Source: Ianthella basta (Eukaryota > Porifera > Demospongiae > Verongiida > Ianthellidae). Taken from it: a stretch of 64,000 bases of DNA. Below are positions 441-10,900 of this stretch, one piece after another. The position numbers were made by a program, and so were the translations under genes. The stretch lies in the NCBI GenBank assembly GCA_964019415.1, contig OZ025876.1:2360502-2424501 (forward strand). Direction: 5' to 3'. Every line of letters starts with the position of its first letter. The first letter of the stretch is position 1. The notes below the pieces were generated by a model that was not told where the DNA came from, made no database searches, and worked only from the letters and a program-made list of their open reading frames with translations.

Positions 441-1045
441 TGACGTACAACCGTAGTTTGGCGTATCATATATATATATATATATATCCGTAACAAGAAG
501 CCATATGAAAATGTCAATTTGAAAACAATATAGGGGCTGCCTGCGGCAGCCCCTAAAACATTTTTTGCCTGCCCGGTAGAGGGAGGTGCCTGTAACTACA
601 AGGTCCGGATAAGGGAGGTTCTACTGTATACACTAATACATATAATTATAGTGAAAGTTACATTGGTGTGGGTGAACCATGAACTGGGTGGCTATCAGAC
701 GTCACGCTTGAGACGTCTATTTAGGAATGTGCCTGATACTATAGTTAATCATATATAATTGGGCCTACGTACATGCAAGGGAATTAGGAATGTTAAGCGA
801 ACTACACAGAATTGAGGTATATCACAGTGCTGGATTACTGTTGCTTGTTTCTATGCATTTTCGGACAGCCATTCTTAAATCCCCTATAATTTCAAGGGAT
901 ATTTTTATTACACTTATATAAGTAACTATTGATGCAGCTGCATGCACTACTAATGCATGCATCCTGAAGATAGTGCCAGGTTTATAGCCCTTGGCTGTGA
1001 AGAGTCACTTTTACTTTGCAGTTAAATTAGTGCAGTGCCATTCTT

Positions 1046-1632
1046 TAGTCTTGTTCCCAGACCCTTCCGAAGGTGCGCGAGCAAACGAGAGGAGGATGGG
1101 TCTGGTGAAAATGGACAGGTTCTTGTGACCACTGCCGGAATGTGGGCAGCACCAATCAGATTGCTAGTAGCAGAATATTGTGCAATTTCTCACTCACGAA
1201 CGAGTTATAATGGCGAGCGTAAGTAACCAGATTCGCAGTTGAAGAAGTGAGCACAGCCATCTCCAGAGCAGCTAAAGAGCTTGGATACAGACAGTTGAAG
1301 GACAAGCAGTACCAGGCAGTGTCGGAGTTCGTTTGTGGCAAAGATGTCTTCATAAGTCTGCCAACAGGCGGCAGAAAATCGCTCTGCTATGCTCTGCTGC
1401 CCGCCAATTACGATGTTCTACGCCAGAGTGCCAGCCCTACCTCGATTGTCATCATTGTGCGTCCCTTCCTCAGCACAGAATAGCAACTTGCGATCGAAGC
1501 GTCAGAGAAGCCGTAACTAATCACATGCAGCATTACGTCATCATCCATAATTACATTCCATTGTGCCCAAACCTTCTGCCCACTTTCACCAGACCCTTCC
1601 TCCCCCATGGGAAGGGTCTGGGGACAAGACTA
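1046..1632 (+). mobile_element. TAGTC-type inverted-repeat transposon carrying a RecQ-like fragment
   Basis: The ends are inverted copies: TAGTCTTGTTCCCAGACCCT at the left and, reading inward from the right, TAGTCTTGTCCCCAGACCCT (one mismatch in 20). The element is flanked by a 9-bp near-duplication, GCCATTCTT at 1037-1045 and GCTATTCTT at 1633-1641. Nine-base target duplications are typical of Mutator-like elements, but no transposase is encoded, so the superfamily is inferred. The interior is a broken helicase fragment described separately. Three other elements in this window share the end motif. Confidence 0.75.
1210..1483 (+). pseudogene. RecQ-like DNA helicase N-terminal fragment, broken
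   Basis: From 1247 the translation includes ELGYRQLKDKQYQAV and FVCGKDVFISLPTGGRKSL, which is the start of a RecQ-type helicase: the Gln-containing region before motif I followed by the Walker A loop. The loop reads LPTGGRKS where a working enzyme has LPTGxGKS, so the invariant Gly before Lys is replaced by Arg. An ATG at 1210 opens a matching N-terminus but a one-base loss near 1234 puts it out of frame. The frame ends at 1483 shortly after motif I, so the DEAH box and the rest of the motor are absent. It lies wholly inside the inverted-repeat element. Not functional as a helicase. Confidence 0.7.
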
Positions 1633-1945
1633 GCTATTCTTAGCAGTATAGAAAAATGTCCAAATATGGCAAGAGTACATGGCAAGTGACAGCCTCTACA
1701 CTTACATAATGTATGTGTGTATATCTTTATGTATGTGTATATATCTTCAAATGAGAGCTATGGGCCAAAAGAACCATTGTTGGAGTGAAAGTGAGCACCA
1801 TGTCAATGACACTGACAAGCCTACGTATATGGAAGACCAAAATATAAATGCTCTAGAGATATCTGATGTGGGCAACAAAGCAAAGATTTCATTATACGAA
1901 TATGTATGCATAATTATAGAAATTAAAAAATAGTTTAGTGCTCAC

Positions 1946-4900
1946 AGTATCTTTCTGGTTGACATCTAGATTGTGCTGAGTTACTAGATCTTTCAGCAAC
2001 TCAGGGTATCCATACAAAGCACAACCATGGAGGAGAGTCTCTCCAGTCTACAAAATAGGAAAGTATACATATAGTATTTAGAGGATTTGAGAGATTTAGC
2101 TAACACAAATGTCTTCTATAATAAGAATGAAAAGTGTTGTAAGGCTGAAAGAAGGAACAGGAAGTGTGAGGAGATCTTCTGGGCAAGAAGCAGTTGTGTA
2201 CATTGTGGAGTTGGATGTTGAATCAGGAGTATGAGGAGGTCTATATATATACGGGTTTGCATAACTATTGTTCTAATCACTGTCAGACTTCAGTGTGCAC
2301 TAAGCTACCTTGTGCAGAGGAGATAACTCTGCTACTGAATGATGATGATGACTATGACAATGGTTTTGATATGATAATCATAAAATCTGAAATGTTGACA
2401 AGCTAGTATACGTATAGTCAGTAGATACAAAGTCACTTACAATTGGAAGCAATTTAGGGTTGCACTGAAGCTCATTCAGTAAGATATTCAACACCGCAGG
2501 TCCAAGACGGAGGGCATGGTAAACAGCAGTAAGACCATTCTGCACAAAATACATACTGCTGTATATTATGGGTACAATATTATGTATAATTATGCTGCAG
2601 ACTCCATATTCTGGACTTGGTAGCACATGAATGTATAGTAACTTAAGGCTTATGCACCCTACATGTAGTAGTAATACATGACTGTGTATAATGTTCTTAG
2701 AATACAACAGATAGTATAGAATGCGATCAGCTACATGAGTCTAAATATACATAATAAGTTGTTACCTTGTCCTGTGCATCTTTGTTACAGCCCAGCTCCT
2801 TTACAAGGACCCGTATGCTATCAATCTCACCAGCTTCTGCAGCTGCCATCATTGGAGTGTGGCCTTCCTAAAATCAAAACATTGGTACATACAAAGAGTG
2901 CACACATTTTGCAGCTCCACGCAGCCAGGACAGCTAGGGCTACTACTACTCTCAACGTCAACATTATGTACTACACAACTTTGAAGCATGCAGTAATCCA
3001 AAACAGTTTAAAGCTGTAGGATGTACAAAGCACACATGCTCACATCATCTGTAGGAGACTAACCTTGTCAACTGCATTAGGATCCAACTTAAACTCCTTG
3101 ACTAGAGCCTTCAAAGCATCCAAGTGCCCCCTAGAAGCACTGAGGTGCAGGGCAGTTAGTCCTCTCTGCAAAATTAAAAGTAACACAAAATTATGGTGCA
3201 CTCAGTGTCAACACATACTGTACAATATTCATGCAGCGTACAGTCAAACAATTCTCTGTGGCAGTGTACAATATATACACATCCCTGTGTTCAGTCTTAC
3301 CAGATCTCTTAGGTCTGCTTTACAGCCACACTCTGTGATCAGAATTCTCATGGCATCTAAGTTACACTTCACAGCAGCGACGTGGAGTGGTTTGGCCCCA
3401 TAGGCTCCAAACTGCAGTAGTAATGGTATAATGGTAGCACCTACTGTTTAACGTGCACAAACCTGTGCAAGGGAGCAGTCACAAAAAATAGAAAATGTTA
3501 TGAAATTCCACATCGATGTTTGTCTATTACAGAAGTGATTCTCTTCACATAGAACACCCTGGTAGCTCAAATGGAACTTATACTAACCTCTCAATTTGAA
3601 TGTAGCTATATTAGTTCTTATTATATTGTGGTATGGATAGTGTGCTTTGATCTTGAGGTTATATCAGGGTATTGGAGTATTAACCCTGAACAGGTTATTA
3701 AATTCTTAAAGAGAACTGGTGTTACAATTGGACCAGGTGCCATAGGAGGCCTCAAAGACTCGCTTGTTTGACATAGGTCAGCAAATTTAGGATGCACAGC
3801 AATATGTGCACCATAGTATAAGTTGGTTATATACCACCAATCCTCATCGCATTGCCTTAGGAACCTCAGGAAATTGGTGAGCAACTTCCCTATAGGTTTC
3901 TAAAATGGCAGTGAGACTTGGCTTGGGGGTATAACCCACACATACTTCCATGCAATAGGTGGTATTTTCTAAGCCTGCTCCAAAGTAGTATGTTCCATGG
4001 GATGCATGCAATAGTGACAGTAATCCTTGCTCTACGAGTAATACAAGCTCGGATATATGTTTTCACATACTAATACACATACGTACATGCATGTTATTCA
4101 TGTACATTTGTGTATTGCAATATAGCCATTTCACTGCCATAGTCTGTACTGCACAGAAATACAGTATATATGAATTGTTTTGATTGTTTGTTAATGATTT
4201 ACTCAAACATCGATGAGGGTTTGATAGATAATCAGTGTCAAAGAGACATACTAATGTTCATACTGCCCATAGTGGCATATCCATTTTCTCTAGCTATTGC
4301 TCAAGATCCCGGTCAGCTTGCAATATAGTCTCGCGTAGCCCAGAACCTTTCCTTTTCGTTTTTTTGTGCAATTACCAGGTGGAAAGGGTCTGGGAATTTT
4401 CTCAAGTGTAACTGTTCAATGTCCGTGGGAAGCCGGACAAGGTGTGAATCTAACACCTCTTTGATGTGGTGCCACAGTCGTCATAAGCAAGTCAGCGAAA
4501 ATGGCAGCGAGTGTTTGTGCGAGCGAAGACGAAGTGCGTGTAGCAGCGGCCGAAGCAGGGTTCCAAGATCTAAAGCCAGAGCAGATGCAAGCCATTTTAG
4601 AATTCATCAACGGTCGTGATATTTTTGTGTTGCTTCCTACTGGCTACGGTAAATCTCTTATTTATGGATTGCTGCCTTTGTCATCGAGCGAGTGCAGGGA
4701 AGACCCGAAAACACATCTGCCGCCGTTTGCAGTTGCTTACAGCAGTTCGCCATGTCCATCTTCGGCGCTATACAGACGTGCACGCATCTCCGGTGTAACA
4801 CCTAATCAACACCTCTGAATTATCGTCCCACAATGGTGTTAAGTAAACAGTGGCTGTGTGTGGGTGGAACAGCTTATGCTTAGGAAAACTCCCAGATCCT

Positions 4901-7900
4901 TTCCTTCCTATTACGCAACAGCGGAAATGGAGGAAAGGGTCTGGGCTACATGAGACTACTTGCAACACAGTGTGGCTTGTTGTAATGTCTATTATGTTAC
5001 ACCCACAGTTTAACATAATCATGACAAATTTTTAAAGAACTCAACAAACATAATATAGCAATGTGTTTGCACCCATGCATTACCGTTAAGACAAAAATGC
5101 ACTTGCAATTAATCGTATATTATTACTGTACACTGTGAATGCAGATTTCACTTACTGCAGAGACATCCATGTTAGCATGGTAGTCTTTAGCCAGTACACG
5201 TACTACAGCTGCACTATTGCTGTCAGACAAGCATGCACAGTGGAGTGGGGTTCTCCCATCCTATGAAAGTAGAAATATAGAATACATCATAATAATTATT
5301 ATGAAGAATACAGCTGTAGTACAAGTACTATGGAATAGCCGGTTCCACCTTGTTCATTGCCTCCAAGTTTGGGTTGAATTGCTCGAGGATGAACCTCACC
5401 ATCTCCACATCACCTTTCAAGCAACTGGCATGAAGGACAGTCTGTCCTCTCTGCACCAAATACAGGACAGTATGACTTCACTTCAGTTTAAACACTTCTA
5501 ATGTAAACTTCAATGGTAACAGATAACTGTAGCTCACAGCATCAGCTTTGTCTGGGTCAAACTTGTACTGATGCACCAACAGTTTCATGCAGTCACGGTG
5601 ACCATTGGAGGCAGCATAGTGCAGGGGGGTCTTTCCAATCTGAGCAAAACAACATTTTATTCATTTTATAATGTTAAACAACACTTCTAATTTACCAGTC
5701 TACGACTTCAAGACATTGCAACCATTTCCATACTTTCACATAAGAAAATGTGAAGAGTAGTGCAGTCATTTCCAAGAATATGGTAACCGCATGCCACACA
5801 CAGCGCTTGTACAACCACAGTAAAGTAACATAATACATACCTCATTAGGCATGTGCTGGTTCATGTTGTATTTCTCTATCAAATCACAGACAATTCTTCT
5901 TCTTCCATGACAACAGGCCAGCATTAAGCAATCCAGGCTTGACTAGGGTATAACCAGATAAAATAGAATAACCAGCAAAGAATATATGTATATCATACAA
6001 TGTTTATGCTTCCTGTAACATTCCAAATCACCCCAGAATGACTGGTAATCATGAAATTGTGCATTTAACATCTGCTGTCGCTCACTCCATTTGATAGCTT
6101 GGGATCAAGTCCGCACTTGTCAATCAGGTACCGCACCACCCTCACACTTCCACCCTCCACTGCCCTGTGGAGACAGCTTTCTCCTTGCACGTTCAAATCA
6201 AATTTTCTTTCACCCAACTTTGCTGCAAGGTACTTGACACAAGCTAAATGGCCACCAAAGGCTGCCCAGTGCAGTGCATTTGTCTGAAAAATGAAGTTAA
6301 TCTAATACAACTACACTTTTAAAAGTACAGAAAAATAATCTATAACGTATAATTGAAGTAATTGATGAAGATAAGGATCTATAGTGTGTATCTGTCAATA
6401 ACTTGTTAAATACCAAATTGACTTGGATATGTGTGCAGTAATGCTTCATGTGTGTGTATACATACGTGTCAAATGCTGACCTACTTACATGTGTAGTGTC
6501 CACCTGAAGTGTATCTCCATTATACTTTTCAACCAGGAGTTTCAAAATTGCCAAATGTCCTTGGCGTGAAGCAACAATAACTGGACCATCATCACTCTAC
6601 AGGTATGCACATAGATGCGTAAGACAAGTAAAGATTCATAGTGCCTTGATGGATACACAGAAATAAAAAGCATGGTAGATGTCCTATATGGCAGACCATA
6701 TAATTTTATGGCAGACTATAATTTTGTTGGAAACAATGAGAGATTTACGCTGACCTACACTGATTGTACGCTAACAAATCCTCTGTTTCTCCTACATATG
6801 TAGGAAAAATATGTGTGAACTGAAATGAAACTAAACTATTAATTACACTTCTATTTGGTGTGTACTATGTACGTACGTACTTGATTTCAAACACTTTCTT
6901 GAGTAGGACTATATATAGCCACAGTGTAGCCAATGAATCAAAATTAATACAATTGTTCAAATATACAACATGATGCACAATATACAGCTATGGAGAGATT
7001 GATTCAAAGCTAGTTACTATGGCAAGCTGATCTATGGAATTATGTGCCCATAATAGCAAATGAATTAAGTTTCTTAGTGAAACCAGAGAGATGGTCATAG
7101 CTTAACAATGTCCTCATAAGAGTGCAGTTGGAATGCATGATTCTGCATTCTGCTAGCTACAGCTAGCACTGTGTTCATTGCTTCTTCCTCTTAATTCCAT
7201 CTGTGAATAGTAAAACTTGTAATGTAGTATTGTTTTATTAGTGTTTGCAATGTACATAGGGTATTTGGGTCTGACAATGAGTACCTCTCCATAGGATAGA
7301 GAGGAAATTTACTGACCACATAGAACAATATGATACAAGTAATAATAAACAATCTAGACTAAATTACCTGGAATGTAGCATTGGCACTGCACTTATACTT
7401 CTCAATAAGCATCTTTACTACAGCCAGGTGACCCTTTTGGACTGCCATGAGTAGGGGAGTATCTCCATTCTGCATTAAGCAGAGGTGGCAAAGGCACAAT
7501 GACAACTTGTTTTGCTATGCTGCATTGCTGTGACGCATGTCACATGAAACAAGCTGCAGCATGGAAAATATAGTCTTGTAAACCAGACCTCCAAAGGTGG
7601 TCTGGTACATTTGTGTAGCATTTGTGCAGCATTTTTAACAATTGAAGCCAGGGGGCCATTTTGAACTGCCATGAGTAGGGAAAACATTTGGTATGTCATG
7701 GGATGGTGGCTGTGAAGCATATTGTGTGCTGCCAAGAATAGATGCATCCAGTTAAGCTTTGGCAATCAGCCTATATGCAACACCATCTAATATCATGCAC
7801 ATCCGCAGCCAGAGGAGGTATGTTAGAGTTTAAGCCATTTTGAGGACGGGGCGCTTCCTAAAATCTTTGCAATCGCCCAATCGGCAATTACAGGCGAATG

Positions 7901-10900
7901 AGTAACCCTGATTAACCACCATTCAGGGCCCAGTTTAGGTACATGTGCACATTGAGTATCCACTTTTATCTAATACAACACAGGCCCACAGGTCCACAGA
8001 TGAAAGACAGACTGTCACAATGCATATCACAAAATTGGGGGCACTTGCCGAGATCTTGGCAAGCCCCCAGGGGCTGTATCAAATTATCAAGCAAATGTAC
8101 CAGACCACGTCCAGCAGGGGCTGGGTTACGAGACTACATGGAATAATGCAAGTTTCGCACCCTAGATTTGTCTTGGGGTGAGCACAGATTTTGATAGTTG
8201 TCCAGCAGAAACTCCAGCACCTCCTTCTGCCCATGAGCTGCTGCTAGGACCACAGCAGGCTGTTCAATCTGTGACTACAATATACAGATTCACAGCAGAC
8301 TAACAATAGCATTGCATGATAATGCTGCGCATGATGTGGGTACGCATTAAGGTACATATGAACACTGACTTGCACTCGAGTAATCCTGCATGCATTGTGG
8401 GACAGGAGATCTTTGACTATGGCAACTGGACCTTCACAAATGGACTTCAGTAGGCATGTTTTGCCAGACTACAACAAAAGAGAATAGCATACTGGTGGTG
8501 CCATGAAGAACTAGCTATCAAATGCATAACCTGACAATTAGTTTGCATCACACAACATGCTGGCTGGTGTTGTTAGGACTATGCGTTTGATGATATTTGT
8601 TCACAGCACTGATGTGCTCAGATGGTGGTCATCTGCATGTGACAGTGAGTAGCAGGAAGTGCTACTATTCTTCACCATGCAGAACTGAGCACACCTACCT
8701 GCATGGTGTATGTTTACAAAGTAGCTCTACTCTTGCCAAGAATATTGTGCCCAAAACCCATCTGGTTAGCAACTGTCAGATGGACTGATCAGATTGGCCT
8801 GCATCAAGTAGATTGAAGCAGAGTGTCAATGATCCTGGATCCCCTCTCTTGCTCTCTTCAATGGTTAGTCACGGCAAGAGCTACATTTACAGCTCACATT
8901 TAGGTCACAAGATCGCCATTGCCCAGTAACATGGTCGCTTGGTCGCATGAATGGTGATCGTGGTCATCGTGTGAGTGCACCCTAAGTAATAATTTACTGA
9001 ATCTCACAACACGCAATTAATCTCAATCTATCAGCAAGCAAGCCGGTATTGCCATAGAGAGAATGCCAATGCCCAGTCCTGTGGGCATTTTCTAGGGGTC
9101 TGTTTCTTTAACTCTACCTCCACATTAAATTCTTCATTGTTTGAATTCCAATTTTACTCAGAATGTTCTATCTTACTATTTTTCTTTAATTTCTACCTTA
9201 AATTTAACTTGTACCTTATCAATTGCCATGGGGTCCAGCCCAAGGGTGAGGAGATACTGAACAAGTTCTTGATGTCGAAACAAGCAAGCATAATGCAGAG
9301 CGCTCCCCAACACATCCTGTGAAAGGACAGAATGGGGAAGGCAGGTAGTTTCAGAAGGTAAAATCCCAAAACACGGATGTATAATTTATGTTCTGGAAAC
9401 ATTTACGAGAATTAAGCAAATTAATTCTATACTGTGAAATTGGAATTTTCAGAACACACAGTAAATAAGCAACTGACTGATCATAAAATAATCACCCTCT
9501 GATTGAATTAATTGTGCTCTGCTGGAGATTTGCATTGAACATAAGTATTAGAGGCTATTATTGATTGTGACAGTATTAATACACTACAGTTAAACTGTGT
9601 AAGGCAGCCATCTGCCTAAAACAGCCAGCATCCCTGGCCTGCCTGCAAACAGATCTAAAACATAACAGTCTACCTCTGCAAAGCAGCCACATCTCTATAA
9701 AGGCCAGCCAGAACAGGCCCACAGATGGTTGTCTTAGATAGGTTTCATTGCAAGCATACTGCAAACAATAGCCACACACAGGATACATAATATGTCTTCA
9801 CACATGCCATTTATAGACGAGATTAATCCTACTTACATTGTATGACCGTATATCCATGTGGTATTCTTCTGTTAGCCAAGCAATTGCCTCCATGCTTCCA
9901 CCAATCACAGCACAGGACATTAGGGTAGGTCCGTTCTGCATACAAGGGCAGCAGAATAGACAGATGAATGAAATATATAATACACATGCAGCTTGTCATT
10001 ATATGTAGAGCAACAAACAGGCTAAGGTATACAATTGCTGAGCCCATTCAACAGTATATGTTTGTTTAATAGTTTTAAGTTTGATCCACCTAGTATATAT
10101 GTCTCCCCACGGTCAATTAGGCCAGGGTAGGTTAGTGGGATATACTCTTGTAGTTCTTACTCAAAGACTGAGCACTGTGTAAGGAATGCAAGGGTACACC
10201 CACAATGTGGCCAGCTTTATATGCAAGAACCTGAGTTAAAATCAACAAGAAACTGTATTGTGAGTTTGAAGGACTGTAGTGAACAGCAAGGTAGCAAGGT
10301 ATATGCATAGTACATAATACTTATATATACCTGTACAATGGTGTTTAGGTCTGCTCCATACTTCCTGACAATGTGCTGGGCAAGCTCCATCTTTCCATAC
10401 ATCAATGCATTATATACAGGCTGCTGTATATTGTCCTGCATATCGAATACCAAGATGTACCTCAAAGATAATGCACTTAATTATCGCATGCTCAATATAT
10501 AGAATTCGGGGATAATAACTACCACATTAGTAATGGTAATGTATGTTATGCACCTTGCTCCACTGCGTAGGGTCCAACTGGCCATGGTACTTCTCAAAGA
10601 GCCAGTCAAAGACAGCTGCATTGCCTGACTCAGCTGCTGGAATCAGCACATCAGCACCATTCTAGAAAGAAAATAATAGCTCAGATGTAGCTGATCAGAG
10701 TTGGAATAACTATTTTGGATGCATCTGGACCATTTTAATGACCTACCTTTGTTACTGTCAGTGGTGGATCAAATTCCTGAACAAACCACTTGACCAGATG
10801 TTCATTGCCACCTCTGGCACAGGCATGCAGGAGGTCTCGACCATCCTTAATATGAATGTATAGGGTGCAGCCAATAAACCCATACAAAGTATGAGGATTG

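Follow-up and report, generated by a model that had tools for sequence, protein, structure and literature searches.

Two short elements with a helicase fragment

The window analysed here is a stretch of 64,000 nucleotides from the sponge Ianthella basta (contig OZ025876.1, positions 2,360,502 to 2,424,501 of the forward strand). It contains two short non-autonomous elements with TAGTC..GACTA ends, called A and B in the following. Both carry the first ~60–70 codons of a RecQ-like helicase on the + strand, just inside the same end. We describe these fragments, the families to which the elements belong and their relation to complete transposons with a helicase gene. The features of A and B are listed by position in the window:

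1037..1045, no strand: target-site duplication of A, left copy gccattctt (8/9 against the right copy)
1046..1632, + strand: element A, non-autonomous, TAGTC..GACTA, 587 bp (inverted ends, family copies)
1046..1073, no strand: left terminal inverted repeat of A, 28 bp, 89% complementary to the right repeat
1091–1118 / 1576–1603, no strand: inner inverted pair of A (sequence comparison)
1256..1471, + strand: RecQ-like helicase N-terminal fragment of A in the open frame 1223–1480 (Pfam DEAD, TIGR00614; extent from the family majority sequence)
1361–1381, + strand: degenerate Walker A of A, PTGGRKS (translation)
1605..1632, no strand: right terminal inverted repeat of A, 28 bp, 89% complementary to the left repeat
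1633..1641, no strand: target-site duplication of A, right copy gctattctt (8/9 against the left copy)
4317..4325, no strand: target-site duplication of B, left copy cttgcaata (8/9 against the right copy)
4326..4958, + strand: element B, non-autonomous, TAGTC..GACTA, 633 bp (inverted ends, family copies)
4465–4818, stop included, + strand: open frame of 117 amino acids holding the B fragment (translation)
4501..4680, + strand: RecQ-like helicase N-terminal fragment of B, ATG to ...GLLPL (Pfam DEAD, TIGR00614)
4636–4656, + strand: intact Walker A of B, PTGYGKS (translation)
4959..4967, no strand: target-site duplication of B, right copy cttgcaaca (8/9 against the left copy)

The terminal inverted repeats of B also measure 28 bp with 89% complementarity; the window copy has 633 bp versus 666 bp for the majority length of family B.

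A first-pass annotation had proposed a RecQ-like N-terminus in the same orientation in both elements, with an intact Walker A loop in one and a G-to-R change and an upstream frameshift in the other. Profile searches and comparison with family copies agree with this description. The NCBIfam model recQ_fam (TIGR00614) matched B with E=7.9e-8 and A with E=2.9e-7, both far under the whole-protein cut-off, as expected since they are fragments. Pfam DEAD reached E=4.1e-6 and 27.1 bits in B, above the cut-off of 26, and E=9.2e-4 and 19.4 bits in A, below it. The Walker A of B is intact (LPTGYGKS). Element A reads LPTGGRKS where the majority of its family reads LPTGGGKS, and the G-to-R change is therefore real. 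The frameshift is real as well, since the stretch from the ATG to the helicase frame has 2 nt less in A than in the family majority (counted by eye). The RecQ-like content of both elements is more than chance because it recurs in many copies elsewhere.

Families A and B across the genome

We searched the whole genome, i.e. 209 Mb, for copies of both elements. DNA searches yielded 155 (A) and 193 (B) first-look candidates, with 40 scored in each case; protein searches yielded 649 candidates each, of which 150 were scored. Family samples consist of 30 loci each for A and B, window copies included. A and B belong to high-copy non-autonomous families, with a mean pairwise identity of 0.88 in family A and 0.95 in family B. 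A 9-bp duplication matching at at least 8/9 positions flanks 20/30 A loci and 24/30 B loci (44/60 together). The duplicated sequences are varied, with 18 distinct 9-mers in the 20 A loci and 23 in the 24 B loci. Two further B loci have an 8-bp duplication; when the other lengths were tested (6–8 and 10–12 bp) these two were the only cases in B, and none of the 30 A loci gave one. Fourteen of the 60 loci lack both a 9-bp and an 8-bp duplication, eight of them because the retrieved match lacks an intact end, whereas six have both ends.

A third stretch with TAGTC..GACTA ends was seen in the window at 7571–8136 (566 bp, flanks catggaaaata / catggaata). As many end matches as in the window arose in 4 of 100 shuffles, and the scored helicase places (150 of the 649 candidates, each of A and B) do not include the stretch. 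Ankyrin-like exons on the – strand at ~5160–6600 adjoin element B, and A and B appear to lie in or beside an ankyrin-repeat gene; both observations come from translations read by eye.

Complete elements with a helicase and a DUF6589 gene

Three complete elements of 5.4–5.9 kb, here called C5, C13 and C7, have TAGTC-type ends and exact 9-bp duplications. All of them follow one plan, with a helicase gene near one end and a gene for DUF6589 (PF20231) at the other, both directed inward:

L069:599-6512: complete element C5, convergent genes, duplication TGTCCGACC 9/9
C13, 7457564-7463456: complete element C13, convergent genes, duplication ATCATGGAG 9/9, identical 35-bp ends
C7, 4974315-4979705: complete element C7, convergent genes, duplication GTGACCAGT 9/9

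The left end of C5 bears an additional 12-bp copy of the tip. Its helicase is encoded by a frame of 588 amino acids (TIGR00614 E=2.8e-69, above the recQ_fam cut-off) and its DUF6589 match has E=1e-29. When five frames on the + strand of the C5 locus were scanned with Pfam, DUF6589 was the sole family above cut-off, and no Mutator domain was detected; C5 is a relative of A and B, whose own parents were not found. The helicase of C7 matched TIGR00614 with E=4.2e-53, below the cut-off. Near-identical copies found at separate places suggest that movement has been recent. The protein search pointed to 588-amino-acid helicase frames on C5 and C9, which were 100% identical over 531 amino acids in the helicase search, and a copy on C16 with different flanks is 100% identical to C7 over the 504 bp next to the end. 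A copy on C22, again with different flanks, is 100% identical to C13 along 440 bp and 156 bp of its ends, its best flanking 9-mers agreeing at only 7/9 positions.

DUF6589 gave 58 matches genome-wide, 57 of them above cut-off, and no match in 14 control genomes. For the pairing count the 58 matches were reduced to 41 DUF6589 places and set against 62 helicase places with a limit of 6 kb; the underlying helicase search produced 682 candidates, of which 81 were scored. At 27 of the 41 places a RecQ-like helicase match lies within 6 kb or less, compared to 0.16 expected under uniform placement. Copies within a family do not count as independent, and one helicase is common to two C2 places; the 27 pairs therefore represent an association and not 27 events. 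Their orientation is convergent in 22 cases, same-strand in five and divergent in none. Places with both genes on the same strand include:

G000:C3:974800-982000: L080, DUF6589 first, then RecQ-like helicase; A-like right end at ~5700–5781
C6, 7518037-7521652 and 7529813-7533428: two L080-like places, DUF6589 first (coordinates only)
G000 C3:4512448-4518631 (–) and C10:153494-160326 (+): two like places, helicase and DUF6589 ~3.7 kb apart (coordinates only), helicase first on C10 and, by strand, likewise on C3

The gene order of L080 and the two C6 places differs from that of the convergent elements.

Three blocks, GDN[LVI]D, GDQLT and D[LF]HxEHxNR, are conserved in the DUF6589 frames of 4/4 elements (C5, C7, C13 and L080 on C3), and a C-x2-C...C-x2-C pattern precedes DUF6589 in 3/3 N-termini read. 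The blocks are consistent with a DDE enzyme, and a DDE site together with a zinc finger may be present. Judged from these sequence features, DUF6589 is probably the transposase of the helicase-carrying elements. A profile built from the DUF6589 exon alignment and compared with solved structures gave three matches up to E=10, the best of them to a forkhead protein (E=0.002), which we judged to be chance.

Probable deletion anatomy of A and B

We determined where the helicase homology of the short families stops in comparison to four helicases (L069, L072, L073 and L080). In family A it ends at element position 428 against all four, having run past motif I to ...VVSPLL. In family B the homology extends only a little beyond motif I, to positions 385, 379, 409 and 382, respectively, the stretch to 409 being weak. 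An extent through motif I and little more, as originally annotated for both elements, is thus right for B and wrong for A. Positions 1–24 of family A match the ends of the C5 element at 88–92% and positions 1–19 agree with the L080 end at 19/19, while the ends of B have TAGTCTCG in common with the C5 element and otherwise weaker matches only. The start of the helicase near an end, reading inward, is common to A, B and the full elements. Two features of deletion derivatives are therefore present, namely ends in common with a coding element and a collinear coding remnant.

A further short element was found nested inside an A copy:

L071:717-1477, no strand: nested element, 761 bp, duplication GAGAAGCCG 9/9

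Its – strand holds a helicase start (53% over 43 amino acids, E=2e-10), its + strand a Cys-rich start recognised by eye, and its left end matches the C7 element at 90.6% over 106 bp. This content is the expected product of losing only the middle of an element; A and B are then collinear leftovers of the helicase end.

We conclude, with a probability of about 0.9, that A and B arose as non-autonomous elements by internal deletion from DNA transposons with their own RecQ-like helicase gene. The ancestor would have been an element of ~5.4–5.9 kb with TAGTC-type inverted ends, a 9-bp duplication and two inward genes. One of these genes would encode a RecQ-like helicase and begin a few hundred bp in from its end of the element. 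The product of the other would have a C-x2-C...C-x2-C N-terminus with DUF6589 behind it and would probably be the DDE transposase. A deletion of the middle part would have joined the end with the helicase start to the other end, leaving codons through ...VVSPLL in A and through about ...LLPL in B. The short copies would then have been mobilised in trans via their ends and spread in this way, and in the complete element the helicase may aid transposition.

Several observations weigh against this derivation. Among the scored places there is no full-length element whose helicase is near-identical to A or B, and identity to the four helicases compared is only 37–60% for A and 35–45% for B, so that we infer parentage through relatives. 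Both long-frame candidates for a parent turned out to be short copies: C4:7070325 (159-aa frame), considered as parent of B, is a B copy of 657 bp with the duplication TACTTGACA 9/9, and C4:6506824 (231-aa frame), considered as parent of A, is an A copy which lacks the left 106 bp and contains a nested element. The six loci with both ends show no clear 9-bp repeat, with 4, 7 and 6 of 9 positions matching in A (L026, L030, L038) and 2, 4 and 4 of 9 in B (L046, L053, L063). No helicase match lies within 6 kb of 14/41 DUF6589 places (81 of 682 candidates scored), and the five same-strand pairs among the 27 depart from the convergent plan. Translated comparison of the Cys-rich frame of the L071 element with the N-terminus of C7 yielded no significant match, so this half is recognised by its cysteine pattern. 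A fold model of the DUF6589 exon reached a mean predicted local distance difference test score (pLDDT) of only 36.7, so the case for a transposase is made by conserved residues only. Counted by copies, family B has a ratio of amino-acid to synonymous changes (N/S) of 1.57 versus 2.41 expected, a deficit that is gone when each event is counted once.

Capture, selection and the element's own gene

The first-pass annotation had left the choice between capture of a gene fragment, as in plant Pack-MULEs, and the remnant of a helicase gene of the autonomous element. In the former case the 5’ piece of a host RecQ gene would have been taken up by short elements and then amplified. The fragments are indeed partial genes, no full-length parent of A or B was found, and the 9-bp duplications are those of Mutator-like elements (MULEs). 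However, helicase genes are a standing part of complete TAGTC-type elements with 9-bp duplications, where they are paired with DUF6589 and lie near one end facing inward as in A and B. Moreover, the same 5’ part is present in A, B and the nested L071 element, which would require capture to be recurrent or to predate the split of the lineages. Four long-frame helicase places without a DUF6589 neighbour are candidate host RecQ genes (C11:2787010, C5:7910957, C21:3031006 and C5:9407389; at C5:7910957 and C5:9407389 the C-terminal part alone was matched in the helicase search). A weak point against capture is that they are in neither scored list (150 of 649 each for A and B). We therefore consider capture very unlikely; the origin from an autonomous element's own helicase gene is supported through the related elements.

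Retention of the helicase N-terminus could also reflect selection, for instance on a truncated protein interfering with the full helicase. The frame over the fragment is open in 19/30 B copies and 11/30 A copies, and the crude count by copies in B given above points the same way; the corresponding N/S in A is 2.17 versus 2.33 expected. We applied a codon test in which each substitution was counted once and rates were taken from the rest of each family's sequence. Family B showed 34 synonymous changes (31.8 expected), 70 amino-acid changes (69.4 expected) and 6 stops (4.1 expected); the corresponding counts in family A were 69 (66.1), 137 (142.8) and 7 (9.1). The ratio of amino-acid plus stop changes to synonymous changes is accordingly 2.24 in B versus 2.31 expected and 2.09 in A versus 2.30 expected, with binomial p for the neutral fit of 0.47 (B) and 0.28 (A). 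Unique substitutions thus match the neutral expectation in both families, and at the pairwise identities given above there may just not have been enough time for the open frames to decay. The retained helicase codons drift neutrally and give no convincing sign of being selected, and a selected function is as improbable as capture.

In summary, a supposed case of gene-fragment capture is removed, and A and B are most likely ordinary relics of a little-studied type of transposon. Multicopy partial RecQ genes can be transposon remnants, which should be kept in mind as a warning. DUF6589, so far a domain of unknown function, gains a probable role as transposase of helicase-carrying transposons, and this link is the mildly new point of the analysis.

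Comparison with known transposons

The AcademH lineage of Academ DNA transposons was reportedly described by Kojima in 2020 (Mob DNA 11:15). It is the closest named kind, and the elements are likely to belong to it as judged on duplication length and helicase. A passage of PMC10045372 gives duplications of 9 or 10 bp for AcademH and of 3 or 4 bp for AcademX and ties them to the encoded helicase and nuclease; here the duplications are of 9 bp (9/9 in three full elements, at least 8/9 in 44/60 short-family loci) and a RecQ-like helicase lies inside the full elements. A passage of PMC10799480 names AcademH and KolobokH as helicase-bearing. Curated bivalve Academ elements, for which a passage of PMC10294476 names no lineage within Academ, have a mean length of 5565 bp there, similar to the 5.4–5.9 kb found here. 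The occurrence in an animal, called unusual in the first-pass annotation, would not be so if the elements are AcademH, since a title in the reference list of PMC10045372 names animals and fungi as its sources. Our literature search found no Academ helicase transposon from a sponge, and the word DUF6589 was not met in it, the AcademH description itself lying outside that search. An undescribed superfamily of eukaryotic DNA transposons other than AcademH, with DUF6589 as a new type of transposase and with convergent and tandem sublineages, is the less likely alternative.

Kolobok elements duplicate TTAA, whereas 9-bp duplications of varied sequence were found here, and on this difference in length we rejected a KolobokH-type element, i.e. 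a member of the Kolobok superfamily with RecQ as accessory gene, as highly improbable. The likeness is the RecQ helicase gene itself, which passages of PMC9587614 place downstream of the transposase and only in fungi.

A and B resemble miniature inverted-repeat elements arisen by internal deletion in that they are short, present in high copy number and equipped with the ends and the duplication length of a coding element. They differ from these in that ~200 bp of coding DNA have been kept at one end. With Pack-MULEs they have in common the 9-bp duplication and a gene fragment in a short element. In Pack-MULEs, however, the source is a host gene outside the element, whereas here the helicase gene lies inside the complete relatives, and the fragment in A and B is most likely derived from the element's own gene and not from the host's.
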